The notes below the pieces were generated by a model that had not been told where the DNA came from, searched no databases, and was given only the letters and a program-made list of their open reading frames with translations. The position numbers and the translations under genes are program-made. DNA of 64,000 nucleotides, from the NCBI GenBank assembly GCA_024244705.1, contig JAAEOK010000056.1, positions 1-64,000 on the forward strand, written 5' to 3'. The DNA is from Alphaproteobacteria bacterium (GTDB lineage: Bacteria > Pseudomonadota > Alphaproteobacteria > JAAEOK01). Each line of letters starts with the position of its first letter. Position 1 is the stretch's first letter. This document shows, piece by piece, positions 2,391 to 52,560 of the stretch.

Positions 2391-2471
2391 TTGTTCATTG
2401 GCCGTCAGCAGCGGTGCAATCCCCCTGAACCTAGCGCCCAGGGAATCCGACGGGCAAACGAATTCCGGACG

Positions 2472-2741
2472 AGAGCCTTATCGAATCATACGGAACCATT
2501 CTGCCGCCGGCATTTTTCGCCGTGACCAGGAAAGCGCCGCAGAGCGTATCCCGCATCCGGTCAAGGCGGTTGACGCCGTCATGGCGAAAAAGGCCGCGGC
2601 CCGACGGGGTTGCGTTTGGGCGGCCATCCGCGGCGTTGCCGCCCTCACCCGATGCTTCGGCATCGCGTTTCGGACGGCGCCTTGCGGCCTGGCACGCCCA
2701 AACCGCAACAGAATTGATCCCGTATGATTCGATAAGGCTCT
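2472..2741. repeat. 270-bp element bounded by perfect 22-bp inverted repeats (MITE-like)
   Basis: Positions 2472-2493 are the exact reverse complement of 2720-2741. The similarity continues imperfectly inward (an ATTCTG block on each side after one gap). The element fills most of the 385-bp gap between the cyclase and HIG1 genes. The interior has short open frames on both strands but none with a convincing start or protein-like composition. The architecture fits a miniature inverted-repeat element or a repeated intergenic palindrome. No clear target duplication is visible at the edges. Confidence 0.65.
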
Positions 2742-2775
2742 AGGCCGGTCAAGGGGTCGAGTCTATACATCCCGG

Positions 2776-2979
2776 ATGGCGGTAGCGGAAATTCTCGAAA
2801 TCCTGATCTACATTGCCTTGGCGGGTGTCGTCGCCGCGCTGTTGATCGGCGTGGTATCGATGTTTCGTGGCGGTGACTTCAACCGCAAGTACGGCAATCA
2901 CTTCATGCGCTGGAGGGTCGGCCTGCAAGCCACCGTCGTCCTGCTGCTGGTGTTGCTATGGCTGGTCAATCGCAGCTAG
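2776..2979 (+). CDS. HIG1-domain twin-transmembrane protein
   Basis: The 67-residue protein has two membrane helices (about 6-28 and 46-64) joined by a short basic loop containing FNRKYGN and MRWRVGLQA. This is the pattern of the HIG1 (hypoxia-induced gene 1) domain proteins found beside cobalamin adenosyltransferase and etfBA genes in alphaproteobacteria. In mitochondria HIG1 proteins bind respiratory supercomplexes; the bacterial role is less clear. The last 24 bases overlap the end of the convergent gene on the minus strand. Start at ATG 2776. Confidence 0.8.
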   Translation: MAVAEILEILIYIALAGVVAALLIGVVSMFRGGDFNRKYGNHFMRWRVGLQATVVLLLVLLWLVNRS

Positions 2980-4428
2980 CCCGGGTTTCTCACCACGGAT
3001 CGCGGTCGTGTCGCGGATCAACCAGCACAGCGCAACGATGGCGCACGGGATCGTCGGCTCGATGTGCCGGGGCACGTTGTCGGTGATCAAAGCGTGGCTG
3101 ACGACGACGTAGAGCGACGGCAGCAGAAAGACGAGGACCGGCCGGCGGCGTCGGCGCCAGGCCCTGATCGCGGCCCACACCATCGCCGGCAACAGCAACA
3201 CCGAGAACATTCGGGCGGCGAAACCGATTCGCCGATCGACGGCATCGATCCCAGTCCATTTTCCGGCGGTTTCGTAGGCCATCCCCCGCCACATCAACAG
3301 CCCGGACACGGCGACGTGCTTGACCGGGTTCTCCGCCATCACCTGCAGCGGCGTCAGCATCTTGACCAGGTTGCGATAGCGCCCGCCCAGAGCATCGATG
3401 TTGGCCTGCTGACGCGCATTGACCACGCCGCGGTCATATTTGATGCGCACGTGATAACCGTCGACGTTGTGGGTCGACAGCATTTCGTATTGGCCGGGCT
3501 CGAGATAGGCGGCGGCCAGGTCCTCGCCGACATAGGGCGCGTAATAGACCAATCCGGCGAACGCCTCGTCCCAGGTCATCATGTCGTATTCGGCGCGGCG
3601 CAACAGCAATCCATGGCCGCGCTGGGTGAATTGGACCGTATCGACGACGACGATATTGCGCGCCACCCATGCCGAGGCCATGGCGAGCGCGATCAAGACG
3701 ATCCAGGAGAGCGGAACGAACGCGGCGCTGTGGCGACCGCGGCTGAAAAACGTCATCGCAATGAGAATGGCGAGGCCGCCGAAAATATAGAATAGGAAGA
3801 TCGCCTTGGTCAGCACCAGGAGGCCGAGGCTGACCCCGGCCACGATCGCGACCCAGCGGCGGCCGGGATTCTGCGCCAGCAATGCGATCGCGAAGGCATG
3901 GGCGGTCAACAAGAGGGTGGCCAAGGGTTCGGATACGAAGGTCGCCGCGGCATAAAAGATCGCGTTGCCTTGGAAAAGAAACAGGGCCACGGCCAATACC
4001 GCCAACCAGCCGCGACCGCAGAGCCATACCGCCGCCGCGTAAATCAGCAGCGCGATGGCGACGAGCAGGAACATGTGCATGAAAACGAGCCCGTCCCGGA
4101 GGTCCGGACAGCTCGACGGAGATTCGAGCAGGCACGCGATATCGGGCGGCGGCGCCCCGAGCAGAGCCGCCATGCCTATTGCCAAATATGCCGGATAGGC
4201 AGGTTCGCGGATGATCGTCGGCTGCGCCTCGCCGTCATCGGTGGCACGCCAGGCGAAGCTGCCGGTGGTCGCCAGGTTAAAGGCGATGTCGGTAAATTGA
4301 CCGCTCAGATCGAAAACCGAGCGCCGGTCGATGTTGGTCCAGGTGACCAGCAGAACGCATGCGATGAGAATCGCAACCGCAACGCGGTCGGCGCCAATTG
4401 CCCGAAACCGTTTCTGATCCGCGTGCAT
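2956..4428 (-). CDS. Polytopic GT-C fold (GT39/PMT-like) glycosyltransferase
   Basis: The product is about 490 residues and is mostly hydrophobic helices. An early luminal loop contains DLSGQFTDIAFNL and REPAYPAYLA, resembling the first periplasmic loop of dolichyl/undecaprenyl-phosphate-sugar mannosyltransferase-like (GT39/ArnT) proteins. Such enzymes transfer sugar from a lipid carrier on the outer face of the inner membrane. The acceptor and donor cannot be told from sequence. An ATG at 4428 is preferred over the TTG one codon upstream. The gene is convergent with, and overlaps, the HIG1 gene, and separates it from pduO, which usually follows HIG1 directly. Assignment to fold is fair; exact function is unknown. 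Confidence 0.65.
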   Translation of the reverse strand: MHADQKRFRAIGADRVAVAILIACVLLVTWTNIDRRSVFDLSGQFTDIAFNLATTGSFAWRATDDGEAQPTIIREPAYPAYLAIGMAALLGAPPPDIACLLESPSSCPDLRDGLVFMHMFLLVAIALLIYAAAVWLCGRGWLAVLAVALFLFQGNAIFYAAATFVSEPLATLLLTAHAFAIALLAQNPGRRWVAIVAGVSLGLLVLTKAIFLFYIFGGLAILIAMTFFSRGRHSAAFVPLSWIVLIALAMASAWVARNIVVVDTVQFTQRGHGLLLRRAEYDMMTWDEAFAGLVYYAPYVGEDLAAAYLEPGQYEMLSTHNVDGYHVRIKYDRGVVNARQQANIDALGGRYRNLVKMLTPLQVMAENPVKHVAVSGLLMWRGMAYETAGKWTGIDAVDRRIGFAARMFSVLLLPAMVWAAIRAWRRRRRPVLVFLLPSLYVVVSHALITDNVPRHIEPTIPCAIVALCWLIRDTTAIRGEKPGLAAIDQP

Positions 4429-4528
4429 CAAGCGGCATACTCGACATGGTCGCGCTAGCGCCGAGACTTATGCATTATTCCCCGGCACGGGAACAGGCGA
4501 GTCTCGCCACTCAACGAAAGGGCGCAGC

Positions 4529-5095
4529 ATGGTCAAGCTCGACAAAATCTATACCCGCGGCGGCGACGGCGGTGAAACCTCCCTCGGCATGGGCGCGCGG
4601 GTCGCCAAACACGACCCGCGGGTCGCCGCCTACGGCACCACCGACGAAGCCAATGCGGCCGTCGGGCTCGCCCGTCTCCACACCGGCGGCGACACCGACG
4701 CTTTGCTGCGGCGGATCCAGGACGATCTGTTCGATCTCGGCGCCGACCTTTGTGTGCCCGACGACGGGTCGGACAAGTCCGCCAAGGCGCTGCGCATCTC
4801 GGCCGCCCAGGTCGAGCGTTTGGAACACGAGATCGACGACATGAACGCCGCACTCGAACCGCTGAGTTCGTTCATTCTACCCGGCGGCAGCGCGGCGGCG
4901 GCCCACGTCCATGCGGCACGCACCATCGTTCGGCGCGCCGAGCGGCTGATGACGGAACTCGCCACCAGCGAGCCGGTCAATGCCTACGCGCTGCAATACA
5001 TCAACCGTTTGTCGGACCACCTGTTCGTGCTGTCGCGCCACCTCAACGAAGACGGCCGCGGCGATGTGCTGTGGCGACCGGGCGCCAACCGGTGA
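4529..5095 (+). CDS. pduO: PduO-type cob(I)alamin adenosyltransferase
   Basis: The 188-residue protein transfers the adenosyl group of ATP to cob(I)alamin, making adenosylcobalamin. The N-terminal YTRGGDGGETSLG is the ATP-binding signature of the PduO/MMAB family, followed by the YGTTDEANAAVG motif and the C-terminal RRAERLM and INRLSDHLFVLSR helices. The length is typical of single-domain bacterial enzymes. The start at ATG 4529 is preceded by AAAGGG at good spacing. A B12-dependent ribonucleotide reductase in the same window (28060-30381) is an obvious user of its product. The family commonly sits between HIG1 and etfBA in this lineage. Confidence 0.93.
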   Translation: MVKLDKIYTRGGDGGETSLGMGARVAKHDPRVAAYGTTDEANAAVGLARLHTGGDTDALLRRIQDDLFDLGADLCVPDDGSDKSAKALRISAAQVERLEHEIDDMNAALEPLSSFILPGGSAAAAHVHAARTIVRRAERLMTELATSEPVNAYALQYINRLSDHLFVLSRHLNEDGRGDVLWRPGANR

Positions 5096-5116
5096 CGTCG
5101 GCGACGCGTTTGGCGG

Positions 5117-6499
5117 CTACTGCGCGCGGCGGCGCAGGTAGTTGAGCAAATCGATGCGGGTGACCAATCCGCGATAGGCATCGCCCTGGAAAATGAGCGC
5201 GACATAACCGTCGCGCAGCAACGCCACCAGGTCGCCGAGCGGCGCGCTGCATTGCAAGGTCTCGAGCCGCGTCGTCATCGAATCGCGCAGCGGCTTGGCG
5301 AAATCCCGTTCGTGGCCGAACACCGCGCTCAGCAGGTCCATTTCATCGATGATGCCAACGATCGCGCCGTCCTCGAACACCGGCAGCTGAGACACGTTGT
5401 ACAGTTTCATCCGTCCGTAGGCGGCGAGCAAAGTATCGTCCGGGGTGACGGTAAAGTCCTCGTGGCCCTCGTGCCGGCGTGCGATGAGGTCGCACAGATT
5501 GCCTTCCTGCTCGCGCTTGACGAAGCCCTGATCGAGCATCCAATAATCGTTGTACATTTTGGACAGGTACTTGTCGCCGCGATCGGGAATGATGACGACG
5601 ACGCGTTTCGGTTCGCTCTGCTCGCGGCAATAGCGCAGCGCCGCCGAGACCAAGGTACCGGTCGACGAACCGCCCAGCACACCCTCTTTGCGGACCAGTT
5701 CGCGCGCCGCCGCGAAGCTTTCGGCATCGCTGACCCGGTAGGCCTTGTCGATCAGGGACAGATCGCCGATCGGCGGCAGGTCGTCTTCGCCGATACCCTC
5801 GACCAGCCACGCCCCCGGCTCGATCAGCTCCCCGGTTTCGACATAGTCGACCAGGATCGAGCCAACGGGGTCGGCCAGCACGACTTCGATATCCGGCTGA
5901 ACGCCCCGAAAATACCGGCCGAGACCGGTCAGCGTCCCACCGGTGCCAACACCGAGGACGAGGGCATCGATATCGTGATCCATCTGGGCCCAGATCTCCG
6001 GCCCGGTGCCTTTTTCGTGCGCCCGCGGGTTATGTACGTTGCCGTGTTGATAGACGTAGAACGCGTTCTCCGTCTCATCGGCGATACGTCGCGCCATGGT
6101 TTGATAGTTTTCGGGGTGTCCGGGCGGCACATCCGAGCGCGTCACGATGACCTCGGCGCCAAACGCGCGAAGGTGCTGAATCTTCTCCTGGCTCATCTTG
6201 TCGGGGATGACGATGACCATGCGGTAGCCCTTGAGCGCCGCCACCAGCGCCAGCCCCACGCCGGTATTGCCCGACGTCGCCTCGACCAAGGTGCCACCCG
6301 GCTTGATTTTTTCCTCCCGTTCGGCGCCCTCGACCATGGTCATGGCGATGCGGTCCTTGATCGAGCCGCCCGGGTTGTATTGTTCGAGCTTGCCGAACAG
6401 CCGACAGGGTCCGGTATCGAGGTTCTTGAACTCGACCACGGGTGTGCCGCCGATCATCGCCAGCGCGTCGCTGACGACCGGAGGAGGAGGTCCCTTCAC
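5117..6499 (-). CDS. cbs: Cystathionine beta-synthase (PLP domain plus CBS pair)
   Basis: The 460-residue fold-type II PLP enzyme has the Schiff-base lysine in NPGGSIKDR and a phosphate-binding glycine loop in GVGTGGTLTGLG. The substrate loop is ATSGNTG. After about residue 335 come two CBS motifs (with DDTLLAAYGRMKLYNVSQLPVFE and GLVTRIDLLNYL), which normally bind adenosyl ligands. Expected reaction: serine plus homocysteine to cystathionine, or H2S production from cysteine. The frame begins with GTG at 6499. The next ATG, at 6457, would cut into the conserved DALAMIGGTP segment, so GTG is preferred. It lies opposite pduO and etfB and is divergent from the latter. Confidence 0.88.
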   Translation of the reverse strand: MKGPPPPVVSDALAMIGGTPVVEFKNLDTGPCRLFGKLEQYNPGGSIKDRIAMTMVEGAEREEKIKPGGTLVEATSGNTGVGLALVAALKGYRMVIVIPDKMSQEKIQHLRAFGAEVIVTRSDVPPGHPENYQTMARRIADETENAFYVYQHGNVHNPRAHEKGTGPEIWAQMDHDIDALVLGVGTGGTLTGLGRYFRGVQPDIEVVLADPVGSILVDYVETGELIEPGAWLVEGIGEDDLPPIGDLSLIDKAYRVSDAESFAAARELVRKEGVLGGSSTGTLVSAALRYCREQSEPKRVVVIIPDRGDKYLSKMYNDYWMLDQGFVKREQEGNLCDLIARRHEGHEDFTVTPDDTLLAAYGRMKLYNVSQLPVFEDGAIVGIIDEMDLLSAVFGHERDFAKPLRDSMTTRLETLQCSAPLGDLVALLRDGYVALIFQGDAYRGLVTRIDLLNYLRRRAQ

Positions 6500-6627
6500 C
6501 GGCCGGGCCGTCTGCTTTTCGTTATCACCATTCGCTTCCCACGCCGCGTTCGAAGGGGACGATTATAGCCATCGCGGCGGCGCCGGACAGAGGCGATTCG
6601 ACGGCTTGAAAATCGGCCCGCCGTTGA

Positions 6628-6656
6628 TTGACACGCATTTGTCATCGACTTATTGT
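6628..6656 (+). promoter_or_regulatory. Predicted sigma-70 promoter of etfBA-hbd
   Basis: A consensus -35 TTGACA (6628-6633) is followed, after exactly 17 bases, by TATTGT (6651-6656). It lies about 92 bases before the etfB ATG in the gap between the divergent cbs and etfB genes. The -35 match is perfect and the -10 is 4 of 6. No operator can be named. Confidence 0.5.
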
Positions 6657-6748
6657 GCACCCGCGAAAAGGCTGCTGGGACGCGCGCGTTTGGGGCTCCG
6701 GTGGCGTCCTTTTCCAGTACAATCGAGGAAATTGCGTAGAGGCGGGAG

Positions 6749-7498
6749 ATGAAAGTCCTCGTTCCGGTCAAGCGGCTGATCGACTACAACGTCAAGATCC
6801 GCGTCAAACCCGATGGCTCCGGCGTCGAGACGGCCAACGTCAAGATGTCGATGAACCCATTCGACGAAATCGGCGTCGAGGAGGCGATACGCCTCAGGGA
6901 AGCCGGCGTGGCCGAAGAGGTCATTGCCATCTCGCTCGGTATCCAGCAGTGCCAGGAAACGATTCGCACGGCGCTCGCGATGGGCGCCGACCGCGGCATC
7001 TTGGTGCATACCGACGATGAATTGCAGCCGCTCGCGGTGGCCAAATTGCTCAAGGCGATCGTCGACAAGGAAGGCCCGTCACTGGTCATCCTCGGCAAGC
7101 AGGCCATCGATGACGATTCGAATCAGACCGGCCAGATGCTGGCGGCGCTGCTGGGCTGGGCGCAGGGTACCTTCGCCTCCAAGGTCGTGATCGAAGGCGA
7201 TACCGCCAAGGTGACCCGCGAGGTCGACGGCGGTCTCGAAACAGTGTCGCTCAAGATGCCGTGCATCATCACCACCGACCTCCGCCTCAACGAGCCGCGC
7301 TACGCCTCGCTGCCCAACATCATGAAAGCGAAGAAGAAGCCGATCGACGTCTTGACCCCGGCGGATTTGGGCGTCGACGTGGCGCCGCGGCTGAAGACTC
7401 TCAAAGTCGGAGAGCCGCCCAAGCGCGAGGCCGGCATCAAGGTCGAAAGCGCGGCCGAACTGGTCGATAAACTCCGCAACGATGCGAAGGTGATCTGA
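6749..7498 (+). CDS. etfB: Electron transfer flavoprotein beta subunit
   Basis: The 249-residue protein is the AMP-binding small subunit of the soluble flavoprotein that takes electrons from acyl-CoA dehydrogenases and passes them to ETF:quinone oxidoreductase. It starts [20 protein letters not shown], and carries the [14 protein letters not shown] segment, the AMP-site region [15 protein letters not shown] and the recognition-loop sequence [20 protein letters not shown]. The length is standard. GGGAG lies just before the ATG. The stop overlaps the etfA start (TGATG), implying coupled translation. Confidence 0.95.
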
Positions 7499-8433
7499 TG
7501 GGCATTCTCGTCCTCGCGGAACACGACAATGCGTCCCTGTCGCCGGCGACGCTGAACGCGGTTACCGCGGCGCGGCAGATCGGCGGCGACATCGACATCC
7601 TGGTCGCCGGAGAGAATTGCGCCGGCGCCGCGGAAGAAGCCGCCAAGGTCGCGGGCATCGCCAAGGTCTTGGTCGCCGACGGCGCCCATTACGGGCACCG
7701 GCTGGCCGAGAATCTGGCGCCGCTGGTAGTCGAGCTGGCGCCCAATTATAGCCATGTCCTGGCCGCCGCGACCACCTCCGGCAAGAACGTCCTGCCGCGC
7801 GCCGCGGCCCTGCTCGACACCCAGATGATCTCCGAGATCATCGCCGTCGAGGCACCGGATACGTTCGTCCGTCCGATCTATGCCGGCAATGCCTTGGCCA
7901 CCGTACAATCGACCGACGCGGTCAAAATCATCTCGGTCCGCGGCACCGCCTTCGAGCCGGCCGCCGCGGACGGCGGTGCGGCGACGGTGGCGGCGATCGA
8001 CGGCGCAGGCGATGCGGGACTATCCTCATTCCTCGGCCAGGAGCTCACCGAATCGGTGCGCCCCGAGCTCACGACCGCACGGATCGTGATCTCCGGCGGC
8101 CGCGGCATGCAAAGCGGCGACAATTTCAGCCTGCTTGACGGAATCGCCGACAGGCTCGGCGCGGCGATCGGCGCGTCGCGGGCCGCGGTCGATGCCGGCT
8201 TCGTGCCCAACGACTACCAAGTCGGCCAAACCGGTAAAGTGGTCGCGCCCGATCTTTATATCGCCGTCGGTATTTCGGGAGCGATCCAGCACCTCGCCGG
8301 CATGAAGGACAGCAAGGTTATCGTCGCCATCAACAAGGACGAGGAAGCGCCGATCTTCCAGGTCGCCGATTACGGCCTAGTCGCGGACCTTTTCAAGGCG
8401 TTGCCGGAACTCGAGGCGGAGCTCAACAAATAG
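7498..8433 (+). CDS. etfA: Electron transfer flavoprotein alpha subunit
   Basis: The 311-residue FAD-binding large subunit partners with EtfB. The C-terminal FAD signature is clear: VISGGRGM, then [35 protein letters not shown] and the [19 protein letters not shown] motif. It overlaps etfB by one base. Electrons from fatty-acid beta-oxidation and from other flavin dehydrogenases, such as the acyl-CoA dehydrogenase at 50266, could pass through it, although that second link is only a possibility. Confidence 0.95.
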
Positions 8434-8472
8434 CCGGTTGGACGGCAACGACAGCATCTGGGTAATCGAGCC

Positions 8473-9345
8473 ATGATAGAGAAAATCGGGGTGATCGGCG
8501 CCGGTCAGATGGGCAACGGCATCGCCCATGTCTGCGCGCTGGCGGGTTTCGACGTCGTCTTGTCCGATATCGATGACGCCAGGCTCCAGCAGGCGATGCA
8601 ATCGATTGAAAAAAATCTCAAGCGGCAAGCCAAACGCGGCACTATCGGCGACGGCGATGTTACCGCCGCCCTTGGCCGGATAGGGACGACAACCGGTTTC
8701 GATGATTTTGGCGCTTGCGACGTGGTCATCGAATCGGCGACCGAAAACGAAGAAGTGAAACGCGACATCCTCAAGTCGCTGTGCCCGGGTCTGAAGCCCG
8801 AGGCGCTGCTGGCATCGAACACCTCGTCGATTTCGATCACCCGTCTCGCCGCGGCCACCGACCGGCCGGAAAAATTCATGGGCATGCATTTCATGAACCC
8901 GGTGCCGGTGATGGCCCTGGTCGAGTTGATCCGGGGGCTGGCAACCTCGGACGAAACCCACAAGGAGATCCGCGCCCTGGCCGACAAGCTGGGCAAGACG
9001 GTGGCCCTCGCCGAGGATTTTCCCGCCTTCATCGTCAATCGCATCCTGCTGCCGATGATCAACGAGGCGGTCTACACGCTTTACGAGGGTGTCGGCACGG
9101 TCGATTCGATCGACAAGGCGATGCGACTCGGCGCCAACCATCCGATGGGGCCGCTCGAGCTCGCCGATTTCATCGGCCTCGACACCTGCCTGTCGATCAT
9201 GAGCGTGCTCTATGACGGTCTCGCCGACAGCAAATACCGACCGTGCCCGCTGCTCGTCAAATACGTCGAGGCCGGTTGGATCGGCCGCAAGGCGGGGCGC
9301 GGCTTCTACGACTATTCCACCGACACCCCGGTCCCGACCCGCTGA
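8473..9345 (+). CDS. hbd: 3-hydroxybutyryl-CoA dehydrogenase
   Basis: The 290-residue NAD(P)-dependent enzyme interconverts 3-hydroxybutyryl-CoA and acetoacetyl-CoA. An N-terminal Rossmann motif GAGQMGNGIAHVCA, the catalytic His in HFMNPVP and the C-terminal GPLELADFIGLDT dimerisation helix are all present. It is last in the etfB-etfA-hbd operon, 39 bases after etfA. The products link to the PHB pathway at 43628-47247, though PhaB makes the R-isomer and this family usually handles the S-isomer. A related but more diverged paralogue lies at 51703-52560. Confidence 0.92.
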   Translation: MIEKIGVIGAGQMGNGIAHVCALAGFDVVLSDIDDARLQQAMQSIEKNLKRQAKRGTIGDGDVTAALGRIGTTTGFDDFGACDVVIESATENEEVKRDILKSLCPGLKPEALLASNTSSISITRLAAATDRPEKFMGMHFMNPVPVMALVELIRGLATSDETHKEIRALADKLGKTVALAEDFPAFIVNRILLPMINEAVYTLYEGVGTVDSIDKAMRLGANHPMGPLELADFIGLDTCLSIMSVLYDGLADSKYRPCPLLVKYVEAGWIGRKAGRGFYDYSTDTPVPTR

Positions 9346-9370
9346 CCGCCGGGGCGTCGCCCGCCGCGCC

Positions 9371-10462
9371 TCACCACAACATCAGCGCGCCCTGGCCGGC
9401 GGCGAGGGCATAATAAAGCCGCAACCGCAGGACGTATTGCCGGCCGCGAACCATGCGCGTTTCGATACGGGCATTGAAATCGCTGCCGCTGTCGTCGTCG
9501 CCGGCGACATAGGCCGGCGCGCCATCGCTGTCATCGAACAGCACCATGATGCTGTCGAAGGCGCCAAAGGTCTGGATCACGTAGCGACGGCTCTCCTCGG
9601 GGTGGATTCTGAAATTCAGCTGTTCGCCGGCGCCGATGGCGACCGGCGTCGATTCGAAGGCGGTCAATTCGGGAAGCTCCGCGTCCTCGAGCGGCGGGTA
9701 GAATGCCTTGACCCGATCGGTGTCGATCGGAGATAGGCCTGGCTTCGGCACCAGGGCGAATTTCTTGAACGTCGCCGGCTCGATAATCAGGCCCGATGGA
9801 AACGAATAGTGCATGACCGAGTCCTGGTCCCACACCGAGCCCTCAACCTCGGAAACGTCGATCTTTCGGATGATGTTGAAGAAGGTCTTGCTGCGGCTCC
9901 AATTGTTGGGCGGACCGGCGAACGTTTGGTAGACCTTTTCTTCGTCCCAGACGATGCCGGAATTGGGATTCTGGTGCTCGTGGGGGAAGCCGAGCGCATG
10001 GCCGATCTCGTGAAGCGCCGTGTCATGGCCGTGCAGCGTGGTCAGGTCCCAGCCCAGGTTCATTGTCCGGTCGTGGGGGTCGGGCACGAGATCGATGATG
10101 TCCCGGCCGACATAGGACCACGACACGCCGGGCTCGAAGGCGATGCGGATTTCGGCGTCTTGCGGATCGTCGACCTCGGCGAAGCGGAGGCCGATGCCGA
10201 GGTCCTTCCACTCGCGGAACGCATCGCGCATCGCCTTTTTTTGCTTGTTGTTGCCCTTCCACGCCTTCGGTGCGTCGAGGAAGTGATATTGCAGCGCAGT
10301 ACCGTTTACCCACTTCTTCTCGATATCGCGGATGAGCGACATGCGTCGCGGCCCGAGCCCATCGGGCAGGGCGCGGTCGGGGACCGGCGGCAGCTCGCAA
10401 AGCTGAACGGCCTTTGCCTTGCCGGGTGATTTCCTGGTGGCGGCCTTCTTCTTGGAAGCCAT
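9371..10462 (-). CDS. Astacin-like (M12A) zinc metalloprotease with C-terminal PPC-like domain
   Basis: The protein has about 363 residues. HEIGHALGFPHEHQN gives the zinc-binding HExxHxxGFxHEH of astacins, and SVMHYSF supplies the Met-turn. The C-terminal part (last 90 residues or so, from AGEQLNFRIHPEESRRYV) resembles the pre-peptidase PPC beta-sandwich common in secreted bacterial proteases. ATG 10462 is chosen because AGGAGG lies 5 bases upstream; an earlier ATG at 10486 lacks this. The N-terminus is lysine-rich (MASKKKAATRK) with no hydrophobic stretch, so no Sec or Tat signal is seen. Substrate unknown. Confidence 0.85.
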   Translation of the reverse strand: MASKKKAATRKSPGKAKAVQLCELPPVPDRALPDGLGPRRMSLIRDIEKKWVNGTALQYHFLDAPKAWKGNNKQKKAMRDAFREWKDLGIGLRFAEVDDPQDAEIRIAFEPGVSWSYVGRDIIDLVPDPHDRTMNLGWDLTTLHGHDTALHEIGHALGFPHEHQNPNSGIVWDEEKVYQTFAGPPNNWSRSKTFFNIIRKIDVSEVEGSVWDQDSVMHYSFPSGLIIEPATFKKFALVPKPGLSPIDTDRVKAFYPPLEDAELPELTAFESTPVAIGAGEQLNFRIHPEESRRYVIQTFGAFDSIMVLFDDSDGAPAYVAGDDDSGSDFNARIETRMVRGRQYVLRLRLYYALAAGQGALMLW

Positions 10463-10682
10463 GGTATCCTCCTCAATCACCGGCATCTGGACGACGGCAG
10501 GGAGTGTAGCCGATCCGGGTACGATCCGAAAATGTGCAACTTAGGGCCGTCCCGGGCGGCAACAGGGATTCATCTGTTTTCCCACCGCCGGTCTGCTACA
10601 GTTGGGCGGCAACGTGCCTGCCCGGATCGGCGGGGCGGATCGCAGGTATTCGGTACGGAAATTTCAAAAGAGGAATAAATTG

Positions 10683-11360
10683 ATGCTGAACTACGCCAAA
10701 CGCGGTCTCGCCGCCCTACTCCTGCTCGCTCTCGCTGGTTGTTTGAGTTCGGGCGCGACCGATCTGGAAAAACGGCAAAACACCGTCGATCTGGCGACCC
10801 AAACGATCAACGAGTTCATCGCCGACCCCGACAAGACTTGGTTCCGCCAGCACATCGGTGGGGCCAAGGGCGTCCTGATCGTCCCGCGCCTGGTCAAGGC
10901 CGGGTTCATCTTCGGCGGCTCCGGCGGCAACGCCGTCCTGCTCGGACGCGGCGCCACCAAGGACGATTGGAGCTATCCCGCGTTCTACTCGCTTGGCGCA
11001 GTGACCTTCGGGCTGCAGATCGGCGGCGAGGTTTCCAACGTGCTGATGCTGGTGATGACGCAGAGCGGCATGGACGCGCTCCTGTCGACCGACGTCAAGT
11101 TGGGCGCCGATGCCAGTATCGCCGTCGGCCCGGTGGGAACGGGCGTGGCGGCGCAGACCGCCGATATCCTCCTGTTCTCGCGCGACAAGGGCCTGTTCGG
11201 CGGCCTTACGGTAGAGGGTTCGGTGGTCAGCCCGCGCCCCTCCTATAATGAGCAGTATTACGGCAAGCCGGCGCGGTCGAGCGACATCACCATCGTCCGC
11301 GACGTCAGCAATCCCGGCGCCGACGCCCTGCGCAAAGCGGTCGCCGACGCATCGCTGTAA
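10683..11360 (+). CDS. SYLF (YSC84-like) domain lipoprotein
   Basis: A 225-residue protein starts at ATG 10683, with GAGGAA upstream. It has a lipoprotein signal, MLNYAKRGLAALLLLALAGC, with the lipid-carrying cysteine at about 20. The rest is the SYLF domain, marked by GAKGVLIVPRLVKAGFIFGG, GNAVLL and LMLVMTQSGMDALL. Eukaryotic SYLF proteins bind phosphoinositides; the bacterial role is uncertain but these are usually periplasmic, outer-membrane-anchored proteins. An upstream in-frame ATG at 10602 would place the signal internally and is rejected. Confidence 0.88.
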   Translation: MLNYAKRGLAALLLLALAGCLSSGATDLEKRQNTVDLATQTINEFIADPDKTWFRQHIGGAKGVLIVPRLVKAGFIFGGSGGNAVLLGRGATKDDWSYPAFYSLGAVTFGLQIGGEVSNVLMLVMTQSGMDALLSTDVKLGADASIAVGPVGTGVAAQTADILLFSRDKGLFGGLTVEGSVVSPRPSYNEQYYGKPARSSDITIVRDVSNPGADALRKAVADASL

Positions 11361-11377
11361 GACGACTTCATTCTGAA

Positions 11378-11415
11378 CCGGGTCGCCTGCGCGATTGCCG
11401 CTTCGGGCGACCCGG
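11378..11415 (+). terminator. Hairpin after the SYLF gene, probable terminator
   Basis: A perfect 10-bp stem (11378-11387 with 11406-11415, CCGGGTCGCC pairing with GGCGACCCGG) with an 18-base loop starts 18 bases after the SYLF stop. Only a short ATTT follows, so it is a weak intrinsic terminator at best. Confidence 0.45.
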
Positions 11416-11683
11416 CGCCATTTCGACATCGTTCTCGACCCCGCCGCCGCGATTCGATCCGTGGCGGCGCTGACTGTGGCCGGCAGGTAATCCTTGCACG
11501 CCGCGCGAGTCCTGCGGCGTCTCTCCCGTGCCGGTTTCATGAGGGCTGCGAGCTGTCGGAGCGGCACCGTATGGCCCGCTCCTCCGATCTGCCCGCCCCT
11601 GCATGATATACGTCAATGCAGGCGGCCGGCGGCCGCCGCTAGATGCGGGGATTCGGAAACTTCGCTAGGGAAGGCTTGTCACG
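11416..11683. other. Intergenic region before the ABC efflux operon
   Basis: No convincing gene is seen here. It contains a 7-bp stem-loop (11598-11604 pairing with 11616-11622, CCTGCAT and ATGCAGG) and a GGCGGCCGCC-type repeat just after it, about 60-85 bases before the ABC ATPase start. Either could be part of its leader or a protein-binding site. No promoter stands out. Confidence 0.3.
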
Positions 11684-12427
11684 ATGGTGCCGGCCCGCCA
11701 CTCCGCCGCGTCGGTCGACGCCCGCCATGCGACGCTGACCGCGTCGGGTCTGACGAAGGTCTACCGCACCGGCGACGTCGAGGTGCATGCGCTGCGCGGG
11801 CTCGACTTCGTGCTTTACGAATCCGAACTCGTCGTTCTGCTTGGCCCGTCGGGGAGCGGCAAATCGACCCTGCTCAACATCCTCGGCGGCCTCGATAAGC
11901 CGACTTCCGGGCATGTCTACTTCCGGGACGAGGAGCTTACCGATTACGACGACGGGGCGCTGACCCGCTTTCGCCGCGACCATGTCGGCTTCGTCTTCCA
12001 GTTCTACAACCTGATCCCCAGCCTGACCGCGCTCGAGAACGTCGCCCTGGTGACCGAAATCGCGCCGGCGCCGATTGCCCCCGCCGAGGCCCTCGCCCTG
12101 GTCGATTTGGGCGACCGGCTGAACCATTTCCCGGCCCAGCTATCGGGCGGCGAGCAGCAACGGGTCGCCATCGCCCGCGCCATCGCCAAGCAGCCCGATA
12201 TCCTGCTCTGCGACGAGCCGACCGGCGCCCTCGACAGCGAGACTGGCATCCTCGTGCTCGAGGCGATCGACCGGGTCAACCGTGAGCTGGGCACGACGAC
12301 GGCACTGATCACCCACAACGCGATCATCGCCGAAATGGCCGACCGGGTGCTGCTGTTCGGCGACGGCCTCATCGTCGAGGAGCGGCCGAACGCCGCCAAG
12401 CGCGCGCCGCGCGAGATGAGCTGGTAA
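11684..12427 (+). CDS. ABC transporter ATP-binding protein, MacB/LolD type
   Basis: The 247-residue ATPase carries Walker [10 protein letters not shown], the signature LSGGEQQR, Walker [13 protein letters not shown] and a Q-loop in [18 protein letters not shown], typical of the MacB/LolD/FtsE group. It drives the permease encoded next (5 bases after the stop). GGAAGG precedes the ATG. With the permease and the HlyD-type adaptor it forms a three-gene efflux set in which the ATPase is separate, unlike E. coli MacB where it is fused. Substrate unknown. Confidence 0.92.
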
Positions 12428-36750: not shown

Positions 36751-37515
36751 CTATCCTGGCGGCCGGGAGTCGGCCGAGGAGCGCAGCCGTGCCGCGCCGA
36801 CCGGATATCGCGCCTGTCGTGCCGGGACCACGAGCCGGGCCCGCCGCGGCTCCGGGGTCGCGGCATAGAGCTGTTTCGAGGCCTCGACCAAGGTCACGCC
36901 GGCGAAACCGGGGAACCAGCGGCTGCCGACATTCTCCCAGGCGACGGCCGAGGCCAGCCACGGTCGTTGGCGTAGCGGGGGAACGTAGAGCGCGTGTGCC
37001 GACTGGGTCGGCGTAAACATGTTGTCGCGCAAAACGCGGGTCAGCTGTGCCACCGAATAGGGGTAGCCGAGACCGAACGGGGTCTTGTCATAGCGCGCCC
37101 ACACCCCGCGGCGGTTGGGAACCACGATCAACAGCCGGCCGTTGCCGGACAAGACACGCCATAACTCCCTGAGCGTCGCACCCATCGATTCGCTGTGCTC
37201 GAGCGCGTGGACGGCGAGAATGCGGTCGACCGAGAGATCGGGCAACGGCAGGTCGCTCTCATCGGCAAGCGCTGTGGCGTTGGCATCGTCGGCAGGCCAG
37301 TGCAATACCCCCTGCGCCGGCGGCATGACCGCGATGACCCGCGCCGCGGTTTCCTTGAACGGGCGCAGATAGGGCGCCGGATAGCCGAGACCGAGCACCG
37401 CCAGGCCACGGACGTCCGGCCACATCCTGGCGATCGCCGCGCGGATCATGCGCCGCGCCACCGCGCCCCGGCCGCTGACATAGAAATCTCTGAGATCGAC
37501 CACGTCCTGCCGCAT
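36751..37515 (-). CDS. Class I SAM-dependent methyltransferase
   Basis: The 254-residue Rossmann-type methyltransferase has VLGLGYPAPYLRPF as the SAM glycine loop, a DRILAVHALEHSE motif IV and GRLLIVVPNRRGVWAR as motif VI. Methyltransferase_11-like. The acceptor is unknown. The last 30-40 residues are low in complexity and basic. It is read in the same direction as the aromatic operon, with 96 bases between, and is divergent from the GST at 37643. Confidence 0.82.
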   Translation of the reverse strand: MRQDVVDLRDFYVSGRGAVARRMIRAAIARMWPDVRGLAVLGLGYPAPYLRPFKETAARVIAVMPPAQGVLHWPADDANATALADESDLPLPDLSVDRILAVHALEHSESMGATLRELWRVLSGNGRLLIVVPNRRGVWARYDKTPFGLGYPYSVAQLTRVLRDNMFTPTQSAHALYVPPLRQRPWLASAVAWENVGSRWFPGFAGVTLVEASKQLYAATPEPRRARLVVPARQARYPVGAARLRSSADSRPPG

Positions 37516-48088: not shown

Positions 48089-49141
48089 TTGGCCGTCCGC
48101 AAGATGGGCTACGAAATTATTCGATATCGCGATGAATTCCGGGACCAGGTCATCGGCCTGATGAAAAATCATTGGGGGCCGGACGAGGCGACCAACGCCG
48201 CCTGCTTCAAGTGGAAATACGAAGACAATCCCTATCTCGACGGACCCCTCCTTTACTTGGCCCTGGATGGCAAGCGGCTTGCCGGAATGCGGGGATTGTT
48301 CGGCGCGGCGTGGCAGATCGGGGCGCGCGGTACCGGTTTCCCCCTGCCCTGCAACGCCGATACCTACGTCGAACCTGCCGACCGCAGACACGGCGTCTAT
48401 CACCAGCTCACCAAGCGCATGATCGCCGACCTCTCGGCGCTCGGCATTTCCCATGTTCTCAACTTCACCCCTTCGGAGGCCAACGCGCTCAATTCGATGC
48501 TGTTCGGCTGGCGCCCGCTGGGGCCCTTTAGGTCGATGACCCGGCATCGTTCCGAGGATGACCCGGGCGGGCCGGATCCGGTATCGCCGCCGGGGACGCC
48601 GGAGGGCCGTGATGAAATTGTGATCGATACGACAGCTCGTCCGCAGGAAATGGCCAGTCTGATCGCTCGCTGCACCGCGGACGGCCGCATAGGCCACGTC
48701 AGGAATGAAGCCTACTTCGGGTGGCGATACGGCAATCCGTTTTCGAATTTCCGCTTCGTCTATTGCCGCAGCCGCGAATTGGACGGCTATCTGATTCTGT
48801 ATCAAGCGGCGGACCGGCAAACCGACCAATTGTGGATCGCCGACATCGCCGCCCCATCGAAAGCGATCGAGGCGAAACTGCTGAACGCCGCGATCGGGTT
48901 CGGTGACCGCAACCGGTTGCGGGTGTGGTCGGCGACGCTCTCCGACGAAACGCGGCGCTCATTCCTTCGTTTGGGCTTTCGGCCGGACAATTCGAGTGCT
49001 GAGCGACTCCGGTACGCCACCGGTCCGCTCATTCGCGCCATGAACCACGGCGGCGCCGATGGCGAATGGGATCTGGGCGGCGTCGATTTGCGCCGGCTGG
49101 CGAATTGGGACCTGCGACGGATTTACAACGACGCCATGTGA
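48089..49141 (+). CDS. GNAT-superfamily acetyltransferase, two-domain
   Basis: The roughly 350-residue protein starts with TTG 48089 (4 bases after AAGGGG) or ATG 48104. The N-terminal half has a GNAT-like start (YRDEFRDQVIGLMKNHW), the FKWKYEDNPY segment and YVEPADRRHGVYHQLTKRMI, which is the acetyl-CoA loop in a diverged form. The C-terminal half repeats a similar fold (WRYGNPFSNFRFVY and LGF). It looks like a tandem GNAT. Acceptor unknown; similar genes occur in surface-polysaccharide loci. It is convergent with the FkbH-like gene. Confidence 0.7.
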   Translation: MAVRKMGYEIIRYRDEFRDQVIGLMKNHWGPDEATNAACFKWKYEDNPYLDGPLLYLALDGKRLAGMRGLFGAAWQIGARGTGFPLPCNADTYVEPADRRHGVYHQLTKRMIADLSALGISHVLNFTPSEANALNSMLFGWRPLGPFRSMTRHRSEDDPGGPDPVSPPGTPEGRDEIVIDTTARPQEMASLIARCTADGRIGHVRNEAYFGWRYGNPFSNFRFVYCRSRELDGYLILYQAADRQTDQLWIADIAAPSKAIEAKLLNAAIGFGDRNRLRVWSATLSDETRRSFLRLGFRPDNSSAERLRYATGPLIRAMNHGGADGEWDLGGVDLRRLANWDLRRIYNDAM

Positions 49142-49201: not shown

Positions 49202-50266
49202 CTATGGCGCCGTGAGACGGTCCCGTCCCGTGTCGATCACTTCGATATGCGCCGGCATCGCTACATTCTTTTCGAGGTCATGCTCCAAGAGAACATGGTC
49301 GTCGTCGCGGAATACTTCCCGAAAGCCGGCGAAGCGGTAGGTCACCATCATGATCCGGTTGCGTCCGGTGTGCCGGAATTCGGCTTGAAGTCGGGCTCCC
49401 GCATCCCTGGCACGGCGCATGATTTCACTGAGCAGCGTTACCCCGACACCGCGCGACATGACCCGGCAGGAAACGACCAGAAGCTTGAGGGTCCAGACGC
49501 TTTCGCCAACCTCGACAACGACAAGACCGACCTTGCCGTACCAGCCAAAGCGGTCGTTCAGTTCCGCCACCAGCATCAAATGATCGGACGACTGCCGGAA
49601 GGCGTCGAGCTCATCGAGCGTGTAATCATAACCGGTGGAGTTGAGCTGACTGGTCCGCGCAACCAGCTCTTCAACACGCCCCAAATCCTCGGTTTGGGCC
49701 GGGAAGATCGAGAGCTCCATGCCGAGCGAGGCCTGAAATTCGGTCGCCGGCCCGTCAAACAGCTCTTCGGCGGCGCGACGCTTAAAGTCCTGTTGGTACA
49801 TATGGCGTCGCCGGCCGCGTTCCGGTGTCTGCGGACCCGGTCTCAGTCGTGGGTGGTCGAGCAGGTTCAGCAGGTCTTGTCTGGCGTCGACGCACAAGAC
49901 CTCGGGGTGGGCATGGCTGACCTCCGCGCGCTCATAGGCCTGGTCGTCGACGAACGCAAAGGTGTCGAGGCCCAGGTTCAGCGATTGCGAAATTTCTGCG
50001 AGTGAGTTCGACTTCGCCGTCCAATCAATGTGTGGACACAAAAAATAGTCGGCCAGGCCGAAGACCGTGAGTTGCTCCCACGCGGCCGCGTAATCGCCTT
50101 GGCTGGCGATGGCATGCAGCACGCCGTGACCATCGAGGATCCGAATCAGCTCGGCCGAATCCGCGCGCAGGCTGACCGGCCCCTCCAATAGGACGCCGTC
50201 CCACAGCGTGTTATCGAGATCCCACACCAGGCACTTTATCGGCTGCGCCGCCGGCGATCCGTCCAT
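49202..50266 (-). CDS. FkbH-like HAD-GNAT protein (glyceryl-ACP formation)
   Basis: The 354-residue protein has the HAD nucleophile region WDLDNTLWDGVLLEG (D16, D18), Ser55 in IASQGD as motif II, Lys85 in TAKSN, and FVDDQAYERAE (D107, D108). The C-terminal GNAT-like part has SCRVMSRGVGVTLL. These are the features of FkbH-like proteins, which take 1,3-bisphosphoglycerate, dephosphorylate it and load the glyceryl unit on an ACP. The start overlaps the acyl-CoA dehydrogenase stop (TGATG). It is the last gene in the four-gene operon, convergent with the GNAT gene. Confidence 0.85.
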   Translation of the reverse strand: MDGSPAAQPIKCLVWDLDNTLWDGVLLEGPVSLRADSAELIRILDGHGVLHAIASQGDYAAAWEQLTVFGLADYFLCPHIDWTAKSNSLAEISQSLNLGLDTFAFVDDQAYERAEVSHAHPEVLCVDARQDLLNLLDHPRLRPGPQTPERGRRRHMYQQDFKRRAAEELFDGPATEFQASLGMELSIFPAQTEDLGRVEELVARTSQLNSTGYDYTLDELDAFRQSSDHLMLVAELNDRFGWYGKVGLVVVEVGESVWTLKLLVVSCRVMSRGVGVTLLSEIMRRARDAGARLQAEFRHTGRNRIMMVTYRFAGFREVFRDDDHVLLEHDLEKNVAMPAHIEVIDTGRDRLTAP

Positions 50267-51432
50267 CACGTGCTCTCCGCCGGCGGCGGACCGGACCCGA
50301 CGGGATGCTGGCGATAGGCATGACCGGCGATCGACAGCTGACTGATCTCCGAGCTGCCCTCGATGATCTCCATGACCTTTGCGTCGCGCAGGATGCGGGC
50401 TACGGGATAGCGGTCGCTGCAGCCGTTGGCGCCGAGCAGCTGAACCGCGTCGACGGCGGCCCGCATGGCCGCTTTCGAGGCGAAATACTTGGCGATAATG
50501 GTTTCCATGACGGCGTTCGGGTCTCCCGCCTCCCTCAGCGTGCCGGCGCGCCGACACAGCAGGTCGGCGGCGTGCTGGCCGGTGAGCATATCGGCAATGA
50601 TCCGGCGCACCAGTTGATGCTGGCTCAACTCGGCGCCGAACTGAGACCGCTCGCTGGTGTACCGCGTCGCCGTGTCCAGACAGGCGCGGATCATGCCGAC
50701 GCAACTCCACGCCACGCCGTAACGGCCATGATCGAGGGCAGTCGCCGCGACCAGCGAGAAACCGCTTCCCGGCCGGGCCAGCACCTGATCCGCCGCAACC
50801 ACACAACCGTCGAAATCCAAGGTCGCCAACATCGCGCCGCGGGCGCCCAGCATGCCGGCGATCGGGGTGACCGAGAGACCTTCGCTCCGGCGATCGACAA
50901 TGAACGCCGTCGCCTCTCCCTCGCACTGCGCGAGGACCAGGAACAGATCGGCGATTTGCCCCAGGGTGATCCAGGTCTTCGTCCCCTGCAGCCGAAAGCC
51001 GTCGGTCACCGGCACCGCGGACAATTCCGGATGGGCCGCATCGCTGCCCACCGCGGGTTCGCTCAGCGCAAAAGCGGCGATCCGGTCGCCATTCGATAGC
51101 AGGGGCAGGTACCGATCGCGTTGCGACGTCGACCCGCAGCGATGGATCGCCTGAGCCACCATGCCGTGGGCGGTCAGCAGACTGCGCGTCGCCGCGCACG
51201 CATAGCCGACCTCCTCGTTCAATAGGCCATAGACGGTCATGTCCATGGCCTCGCCGCCCCATTTCTTCGGCAGCCATGGCGTGAGATAGCCCGCGCCCGC
51301 GATCTTGCGAATGACGTCGTGGTCGAGTTTCTCTTCACGATCGAACCGCGCGGCATGGGGCGCGATGGTCGCCTCGACGAAGGATCGAAACTCCTCGCGC
51401 CTTGCCACGCCTGGTTCGCCGTTCTCGATCAT
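50266..51432 (-). CDS. Acyl-CoA dehydrogenase (FkbI-like)
   Basis: The 388-residue flavoprotein has the acyl-CoA dehydrogenase fold: ALSEPAVGSD, the TKTWITLGQIADL segment, RSQFGAELSQHQ and the catalytic region LRDAKVMEIIEGSSEIS. In glyceryl-ACP pathways this family oxidises the carbonyl stage on the carrier toward hydroxymalonyl-ACP. Given its place next to an ACP and FkbH-like gene, an ACP-bound substrate is more likely than a fatty acyl-CoA, though this is inference. It lies 3 bases after the ACP gene. Confidence 0.85.
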   Translation of the reverse strand: MIENGEPGVARREEFRSFVEATIAPHAARFDREEKLDHDVIRKIAGAGYLTPWLPKKWGGEAMDMTVYGLLNEEVGYACAATRSLLTAHGMVAQAIHRCGSTSQRDRYLPLLSNGDRIAAFALSEPAVGSDAAHPELSAVPVTDGFRLQGTKTWITLGQIADLFLVLAQCEGEATAFIVDRRSEGLSVTPIAGMLGARGAMLATLDFDGCVVAADQVLARPGSGFSLVAATALDHGRYGVAWSCVGMIRACLDTATRYTSERSQFGAELSQHQLVRRIIADMLTGQHAADLLCRRAGTLREAGDPNAVMETIIAKYFASKAAMRAAVDAVQLLGANGCSDRYPVARILRDAKVMEIIEGSSEISQLSIAGHAYRQHPVGSGPPPAEST

Positions 51433-51435
51433 GTC

Positions 51436-51699
51436 TCAGCCTTGCGATAGTGCGCTTTTGCGGGTTACGAATTCCGCCAGTTCGTTGACCGAGCGAAAAT
51501 TGGCGAGGTCGAGATCGTCATCCTCGACCACGACGCCGAATTCCTGCTCGGTGAAGGCGACCAGCTGCACGGCAAACAGCGAATCGACCACGCCGGCCTC
51601 GAATATGTCGGTGTCGTCATCGATGTCGTCGCGCCGCATTGCGCGCCGGAAGTATGATTTCACTCGCCCCTTTATCGTCGCGGGCATTCGGCCACCCAT
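51436..51699 (-). CDS. Stand-alone acyl carrier protein (FkbJ-like)
   Basis: This 87-residue ACP (or 83 residues from ATG 51687) has the phosphopantetheine site AGVVDSLFAVQLV with S40, and a following acidic helix II and NELAEFV helix IV. It lacks the GADSLD form of fatty-acid ACP and resembles the carriers found in FkbJ-type glyceryl pathways. A holo-ACP synthase is expected elsewhere. It starts 3 bases after the 3-hydroxyacyl-CoA dehydrogenase and 3 before the acyl-CoA dehydrogenase. Confidence 0.85.
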   Translation of the reverse strand: MGGRMPATIKGRVKSYFRRAMRRDDIDDDTDIFEAGVVDSLFAVQLVAFTEQEFGVVVEDDDLDLANFRSVNELAEFVTRKSALSQG

Positions 51700-51702
51700 G
51701 TG

Positions 51703-52560
51703 TCAGTAAGCGAAGAACCCACGACCGCTCTTGCGGCCGAGATTGCCCTCTTCGACCATTTTCTCAAGCAGCGGACAAGGGCGGAATTTGCTGCCACCCA
51801 AACACGCCTCCAATACTCTTAACGAATCGAGGATCGTATCCAACCCGATGAGATCCGCCGTTTCCAGCGGCCCCATCTTGTGATCGAAGCACGACTTGAA
51901 GATGGCGTCCACGTCTTCGGCCACGGCAACGCCTTCGTGAATGAGAAAAATCGCCTCGTTGATGGTCGGCATCAACACGCGGTTCGAGACGAAACCCGGA
52001 GAATCGCGCACGACCACATACTTCTTTCCCACCTCATCGAGGAATCGGCCGGTTTCGCGCAGGGTATCCGGCGACGTCATTTCGCCCGGAATGACCTCGA
52101 CCGTGTCCTTGAGCGGGACCGGATTCATGAAATGGACGCCGATCAGCCTTCCCGGCAGCCCGATGAACGATCCGAGCCGGGTTATCGGAATACAGGACGT
52201 ATTGGCGATCAATATGCAAGACGGCGCGACCACCTTTTCGAGCGCCTCGAAGACCTCGCGCTTGAGGTCAATATTTTCGTTGACGTTTTCGATGACGAAA
52301 TCGGCGTCGGCGAGCGTTTGATAGTCGGTCGAGAGGCCAAGCCGCGCCATTGTCGCGTCGACCGTCTCGGCCCTCTTCGACTTTGTGAACATGGCCCGCG
52401 CGCCGAGACTCCGCCGGATGCGCGTCGCCGCCGCATCGAGCGCCGACGATTCAATATCGACCAGAACCGGCCCATATCCCTGTTGCAGGAGGTCTTCGCA
52501 AAGGCCGGCACCCATGATACCGGCCCCAACCACCCCGACGACCCTTTCTTGGTCTTTCAT
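51703..52560 (-). CDS. 3-hydroxyacyl-CoA dehydrogenase (FkbK-like)
   Basis: The 285-residue NAD-dependent enzyme has VVGVVGAGIMGAG at the N-terminus, the HFMNPVP catalytic His motif and the ETADLIGLDTILDSL dimer helix, ending in the family's RKSGRGFFAY. It is the first gene of the operon. In the FkbH-type pathway this partner oxidises the hydroxyl of glyceryl-ACP. It shares the fold with Hbd at 8473 but is a diverged paralogue. A gap of about 280 bases precedes its start. Confidence 0.87.
   Translation of the reverse strand: MKDQERVVGVVGAGIMGAGLCEDLLQQGYGPVLVDIESSALDAAATRIRRSLGARAMFTKSKRAETVDATMARLGLSTDYQTLADADFVIENVNENIDLKREVFEALEKVVAPSCILIANTSCIPITRLGSFIGLPGRLIGVHFMNPVPLKDTVEVIPGEMTSPDTLRETGRFLDEVGKKYVVVRDSPGFVSNRVLMPTINEAIFLIHEGVAVAEDVDAIFKSCFDHKMGPLETADLIGLDTILDSLRVLEACLGGSKFRPCPLLEKMVEEGNLGRKSGRGFFAY

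Follow-up and report, generated by a model that had tools for sequence, protein, structure and literature searches.

Methoxymalonyl-acyl carrier protein (ACP) is made in the FK520 (fkbG-K) and tetromadurin (mad11-15) pathways by a cassette that unites four protein families: a 3-hydroxyacyl-CoA dehydrogenase (HADH), a stand-alone ACP, an acyl-CoA dehydrogenase (ACAD) and FkbH (PMC7489565). In methoxymalonyl systems an O-methyltransferase would act after the hydroxymalonyl-ACP stage. The zwittermicin-type pathway to hydroxymalonyl-ACP reportedly has four genes without the O-methyltransferase, and its consumer is a nonribosomal peptide synthetase/polyketide synthase (NRPS/PKS) system. In the tetronate pathway (Mad7/Mad8/Mad16) FkbH likewise loads glyceryl from 1,3-bisphosphoglycerate onto a stand-alone ACP; that pathway also requires a PKS chain and a further enzyme of the FabH type. 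An FkbH-domain gene, cj1302, also occurs in the flagellin-glycan locus of Campylobacter jejuni (PMC7099621), and dimethylglyceric acid is present on Campylobacter flagellin glycans (PMC3958885); cj1302 may be responsible for that group, and the locus is a precedent of sorts for glycan-linked use of an FkbH-domain protein outside a PKS. Here we describe a complete cassette of this type in a 64,000-nucleotide stretch (the window; positions 1 to 64,000 of contig JAAEOK010000056.1, assembly GCA_024244705.1) from an alphaproteobacterium. No PKS was found in its genome, and a rare gene for a tandem-GNAT protein lies beside the cassette. The pathway may provide hydroxymalonyl-ACP as an acyl donor for glycans with the GNAT protein as transferase, an account that as a whole we give a probability of 0.5 at most.

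The four-gene cassette and its relatives

The four genes occupy one strand between 52560 and 49202, and the fifth gene converges on them:

51703..52560, minus strand: FkbK/Mad11-like HADH family protein (3HCDH_N 174 bits, 3HCDH 111 bits); would take glyceryl-ACP to 2-hydroxy-3-oxopropionyl-ACP
51436..51699, minus strand: FkbJ-like stand-alone ACP (PP-binding 41 bits), with the DSL phosphopantetheine serine intact
50266..51432, minus strand: FkbI-like ACAD family protein (Acyl-CoA_dh N/M/C 88/67/137 bits); would take the aldehyde to hydroxymalonyl-ACP
49202..50266, minus strand: FkbH (HAD-IIIC plus C-terminal domain; TIGR01686); predicted to load glyceryl from 1,3-bisphosphoglycerate onto the ACP
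48104..49141, plus strand: tandem-GNAT protein, candidate acyltransferase, convergent with FkbH; the ATG at 48104 matches homologues

Reading the cassette from HADH through ACP and ACAD to FkbH, the first two junctions are gaps of 3 bases each, and at the third the genes overlap by 1 base (TGATG, -1). FkbH scores 261 bits with TIGR01686, for which the curated cut-off is 146.65 bits. It keeps D16, D18, S55, K85, D107 and the SCR cysteine C267, all invariant across seven aligned sequences and presumed to be catalytic. Motif residues scored were those common to all aligned canonical homologues. In alignment with homologues from PKS/NRPS clusters the ACP serine, the EIIEG glutamate of the ACAD and the HFMNP and SPGFVSN motifs of the HADH are intact, and the FkbI structure 1r2j is among the matches of the ACAD. 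The strand, order, families and motif residues given in the original prediction were thus all recovered, and the agreement of positions, families and motifs is far beyond chance. A decaying cassette is ruled out by the four open frames and the presence of every motif. Scans for promoters and terminators found no signal stronger than expected by chance.

When plasmids were searched by tblastn with FkbH, one set of matches stood at 44-57% identity (Streptomyces, Nostoc, Gloeocapsopsis, Alkalihalophilus), and below it identity fell to about 30%. Five close relatives that were examined have the identical order HADH-ACP-ACAD-FkbH, beside PKS, NRPS or other polyketide genes, and clusters sharing this order come from Streptomyces, cyanobacteria (Gloeocapsopsis) and Bacilli (Alkalihalophilus); a sixth, from Streptomyces californicus (L014), is a variant inside an NRPS cluster. 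Scanning one genome per species gave 80 cassette loci, and in 75 of these the stretch analyzed around the cassette has a PKS/NRPS match above 100 bits. In an FkbH tree of 128 sequences the window protein falls inside the canonical clade of 95 (SH-aLRT 99), separate from the HAD-IIIC proteins that other Alphaproteobacteria encode; a position among unrelated HAD-GNAT proteins, which would have refuted the original prediction, was not what the tree showed. Gene order, families, motifs and tree together make a strong case for a true FkbK-J-I-H set, bearing out the type of cassette originally proposed. That it makes hydroxymalonyl-ACP is very likely, judging the chemistry by family. Across 385 genomes of the class, no other member was found to have a close FkbH homologue, and horizontal acquisition of the cassette is therefore probable.

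Several relatives depart from the usual arrangement. Six cassette loci (L056, L059, L068, L145, L150 and L151) with no PKS match in the stretch analyzed are short contigs or partial cassettes; these and L081 were left out as support for PKS-free use. L081 (9765-11029, Spirillospora albida) encodes only ACP and FkbH, HADH and ACAD being absent, and has no PKS within 10 kb, perhaps for use of glyceryl-ACP; PKS genes are carried elsewhere in that genome. A separate FkbH/ACAD cassette group in Pseudomonadota (L145, L146, L148-L151) has the rearranged order ACAD-FkbH-HADH-ACP, with ACAD-FkbH alone in L145 and L150, and similar membrane-anchored proteins are encoded upstream of the cassettes in L149 and L151.

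A second, housekeeping-type 3-hydroxyacyl-CoA dehydrogenase occurs in the window beside EtfAB (8473-9345 with 6749-8433), and the cassette HADH is therefore a distinct paralogue. EtfAB could be the electron acceptor for the cassette ACAD.

Search for a consumer in the source genome

The window had been noted to lack a PKS. This is correct, and it is true as well of the full 80,160-bp contig to which the window belongs, so that no PKS lies just outside the window, and of the genome (4.5 Mb, 96.7% complete). Ketosynthase (KS) matches in the genome are FabF (its gene is followed by an MltG-like frame), FabB and a pair of thiolase-like fragments, and FabH is present in a single copy. No modular KS, no NRPS condensation domain and no Sfp-type phosphopantetheinyl transferase (PPTase) was found anywhere in the genome, AcpS being the sole PPTase. 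AcpS is able to serve a stand-alone ACP; PKS/NRPS systems usually need an Sfp-type enzyme. Since the only ketosynthases are FabF, FabB and FabH, there is no condensation domain and AcpS is the one PPTase, the ordinary consumer is missing, and the genome-wide search called for in the original prediction yielded none. The cassette is likely used outside a PKS. A tetronate route is ruled out, there being no extra FabH-like tetronate-forming enzyme in the genome.

No O-methyltransferase lies within or adjacent to the cassette. Its absence from the whole window, as originally claimed, needs qualification: a generic class I methyltransferase (PF08241, 36.8 bits) is encoded at 36751-37515, 12 kb from the cassette. 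It adjoins aromatic amino-acid genes (chorismate mutase, aminotransferase, prephenate dehydrogenase) and is unlikely to be the O-methyltransferase of the pathway. DNA flanking the cassette is ordinary for Alphaproteobacteria and carries polyhydroxyalkanoate (PHA) genes, an aminotransferase gene and the genes of a Tad pilus. PhaA, encoded in this flank, shares 81.5% identity with its Skermanella counterpart and 79% with that of Azospirillum; the host is an Azospirillum/Skermanella-like alphaproteobacterium.

The tandem-GNAT gene and a companion locus

The convergent gene was found as predicted; its frame is open from the TTG at 48089, with the start favored by homology at 48104. Both halves of the protein are GNAT-like, with matches close to the limit of what Pfam detects, and a profile of three GNATs searched against PDB gave only weak GNAT/Eis matches. 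The family occurs in one of the 385 genomes of the window's class, namely the source genome, which has two copies. The second (L164:8216-9454, on contig C70; 34% identical; 25.2 bits in the Pfam search) adjoins genes for a GINT1_N-type protein and a GT4 (group 1) glycosyltransferase, and this locus is a possible glycan-side partner in the source genome.

Searching for the GNAT family across 92 cassette loci gave one match, in Kiritimatiellales bacterium SZUA-380 (L121). Among 338 genomes of that phylum the family is found at full length in this genome alone, with two weak partial matches elsewhere. L121 has a complete cassette (766-4100), and 14 bases after it begins the GNAT homologue (4115-5236), read in the same direction and 30-31% identical to the window protein. 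Next come a protein without a Pfam family (5229-6011), a 2-hydroxyglutarate-oxidase-like (L-2-) FAD enzyme and a methyltransferase; further on are a first cytidylyltransferase-like protein, a PIG-L deacetylase, a glucose-1-phosphate cytidylyltransferase (over its cut-off), an RmlC-type epimerase and an Sfp-type PPTase. With the GNAT gene this sugar locus spans 4115-12390, and includes genes for CDP-glucose synthesis. KS matches in the L121 genome are FabF-type proteins and a thiolase-like fragment only; no PKS-type KS was found there. The CDP-sugar locus of L121 and the glycosyltransferase next to the second copy in the source genome thus put two of the three known family members in glycan contexts.

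The window and L121 cassettes do not form a clade: constraining them to do so is penalized by 72.6 log units (AU p 0.000345), a result to be taken with caution given the long branch (1.26) of the window cassette. On this test a common ancestor of the two cassette-GNAT pairs is rejected, and since the cassettes are not sisters two separate origins of the pairing are probable, subject to the same caution. If the gene is taken to occur once in several hundred genomes, with few neighbor slots among thousands of genes, 92 loci searched and independence assumed, the rough chance expectation of such an adjacency is about 1 in 10,000, and it is hard to ascribe to chance that two rare genes adjoin in both genomes. 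The tandem-GNAT protein is, we think, probably a real partner of the cassette. What had been a hint from position alone has therefore gained comparative support, from the rarity of the family and its place beside the L121 cassette; the transfer role and the acceptor we can only infer.

Acyl donor or extender unit

In the mechanism that we favor, FkbH would dephosphorylate 1,3-bisphosphoglycerate and pass glyceryl to the stand-alone ACP, brought to its holo form by AcpS; the HADH would oxidize glyceryl-ACP to 2-hydroxy-3-oxopropionyl-ACP, and the ACAD would carry this on to (2R)-hydroxymalonyl-ACP (tartronyl-ACP). With no PKS in the genome, this product would most likely be used as an acyl donor and not as a PKS extender unit. 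The most likely transferase, and the best candidate, is the tandem-GNAT protein, which would take hydroxymalonyl (or glyceryl) off the ACP and attach it to an amino or hydroxyl group. The acceptor would most likely be a sugar bound for a surface glycan, for which we judge the chances slightly better than even.

Several observations weigh against this account. The tandem-GNAT gene is on the opposite strand from the cassette, 60 bases away and outside the operon, and no glycan genes adjoin the cassette at the window locus. The Acetyltransf_9 match is weak (24.3 bits, cut-off 25), the AlphaFold model is too poor for a fold search (pLDDT 43.7), and GNATs normally use acetyl-CoA. The known GNAT-linked cassettes number only two, and the assembly is a draft of 127 contigs with an estimated contamination of 4.4%.

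The strand and the lack of a shared operon would suit an unrelated GNAT gene next to a PKS-free cassette with some other consumer; FabF and FabB, both in the genome, are possible condensing enzymes and might make 2-hydroxy acyl chains, or the product might be hydrolyzed to tartronate. This we consider rather unlikely, as the family is very rare yet abuts the cassette in both genomes that have a full-length GNAT and a cassette, the adjacency is seen on two separate cassette lineages, and the genome lacks an additional FabH with which a tetronate could be formed. Ordinary extender-unit supply, by a PKS/NRPS either absent from the assembly or recently lost to leave an orphan cassette, is the use to be expected from the 75 PKS/NRPS-associated loci; it also fits the long branch of the cassette and the many contigs, PKS genes being prone to break assemblies. 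It has become an unlikely explanation, given that modular KS, condensation domain and Sfp-type PPTase are all missing from so complete a genome, that both contig ends are more than 27 kb from the cassette, that four genes and their motifs are all intact, and that a second PKS-free genome (L121) has the cassette with the GNAT.

Mis-binning, with the cassette coming from another organism on a foreign contig, would explain why a close FkbH homologue is found in no other sampled member of the class, and the contamination estimate and the third-position GC content (GC3; 0.73-0.81 in the cassette versus 0.77-0.85 in neighboring genes) can be read that way. We find it highly improbable: the cassette is inside one 80-kb contig with the Skermanella- and Azospirillum-like PhaA, and the source genome has its other GNAT copy on another contig. 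The true donor might instead be glyceryl-ACP, the first FkbH product (PMC7489565), with the two dehydrogenases repurposed and glyceroyl decoration as in glyceramido sugars; Campylobacter flagellin glycans do bear glyceric acid derivatives (PMC3958885). That the operon has kept both oxidases and their catalytic motifs, and that L121 has kept both enzymes too, makes this quite doubtful.

Our broader proposal, that an extender-unit pathway has been taken over at least twice as an acyl donor, with a dedicated tandem-GNAT protein transferring hydroxymalonyl to a sugar, is tentative, its odds being a little under even. Papers sought on FkbH in connection with polysaccharides or tartronyl groups led only to Campylobacter, and those found describe no glycan acyl group of the proposed kind. 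If true, FkbH-type cassettes would be no proof of polyketides, and a pathway of antibiotic biosynthesis would also feed glycan chemistry. There would be a new class of GNAT enzymes taking a small dicarboxylic acyl group off a carrier protein, a negatively charged decoration to add to the repertoire of bacterial glycans, and a compact five-gene system to make and move hydroxymalonyl groups.

Compared with the FK520 and tetromadurin systems, the window has the same four families, but no dedicated O-methyltransferase, no PKS in the genome and a rare GNAT gene alongside. It is like the zwittermicin type in having four genes without an O-methyltransferase and in its expected product, hydroxymalonyl-ACP, but the NRPS/PKS of that system has no counterpart here. 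The tetronate pathway shares the proposed loading step, and differs in its additional FabH-like enzyme where the source genome has one FabH. The Campylobacter locus has an FkbH-domain gene outside a PKS context, there among glycan genes, a likeness of domain and setting. L121 differs from the window in its co-directional GNAT gene, in the adjoining CDP-sugar/modification genes and Sfp-type PPTase, and in the branch on which its cassette falls; it is like the window in its complete cassette, in the homologous tandem GNAT next to FkbH and in having no PKS-type KS.

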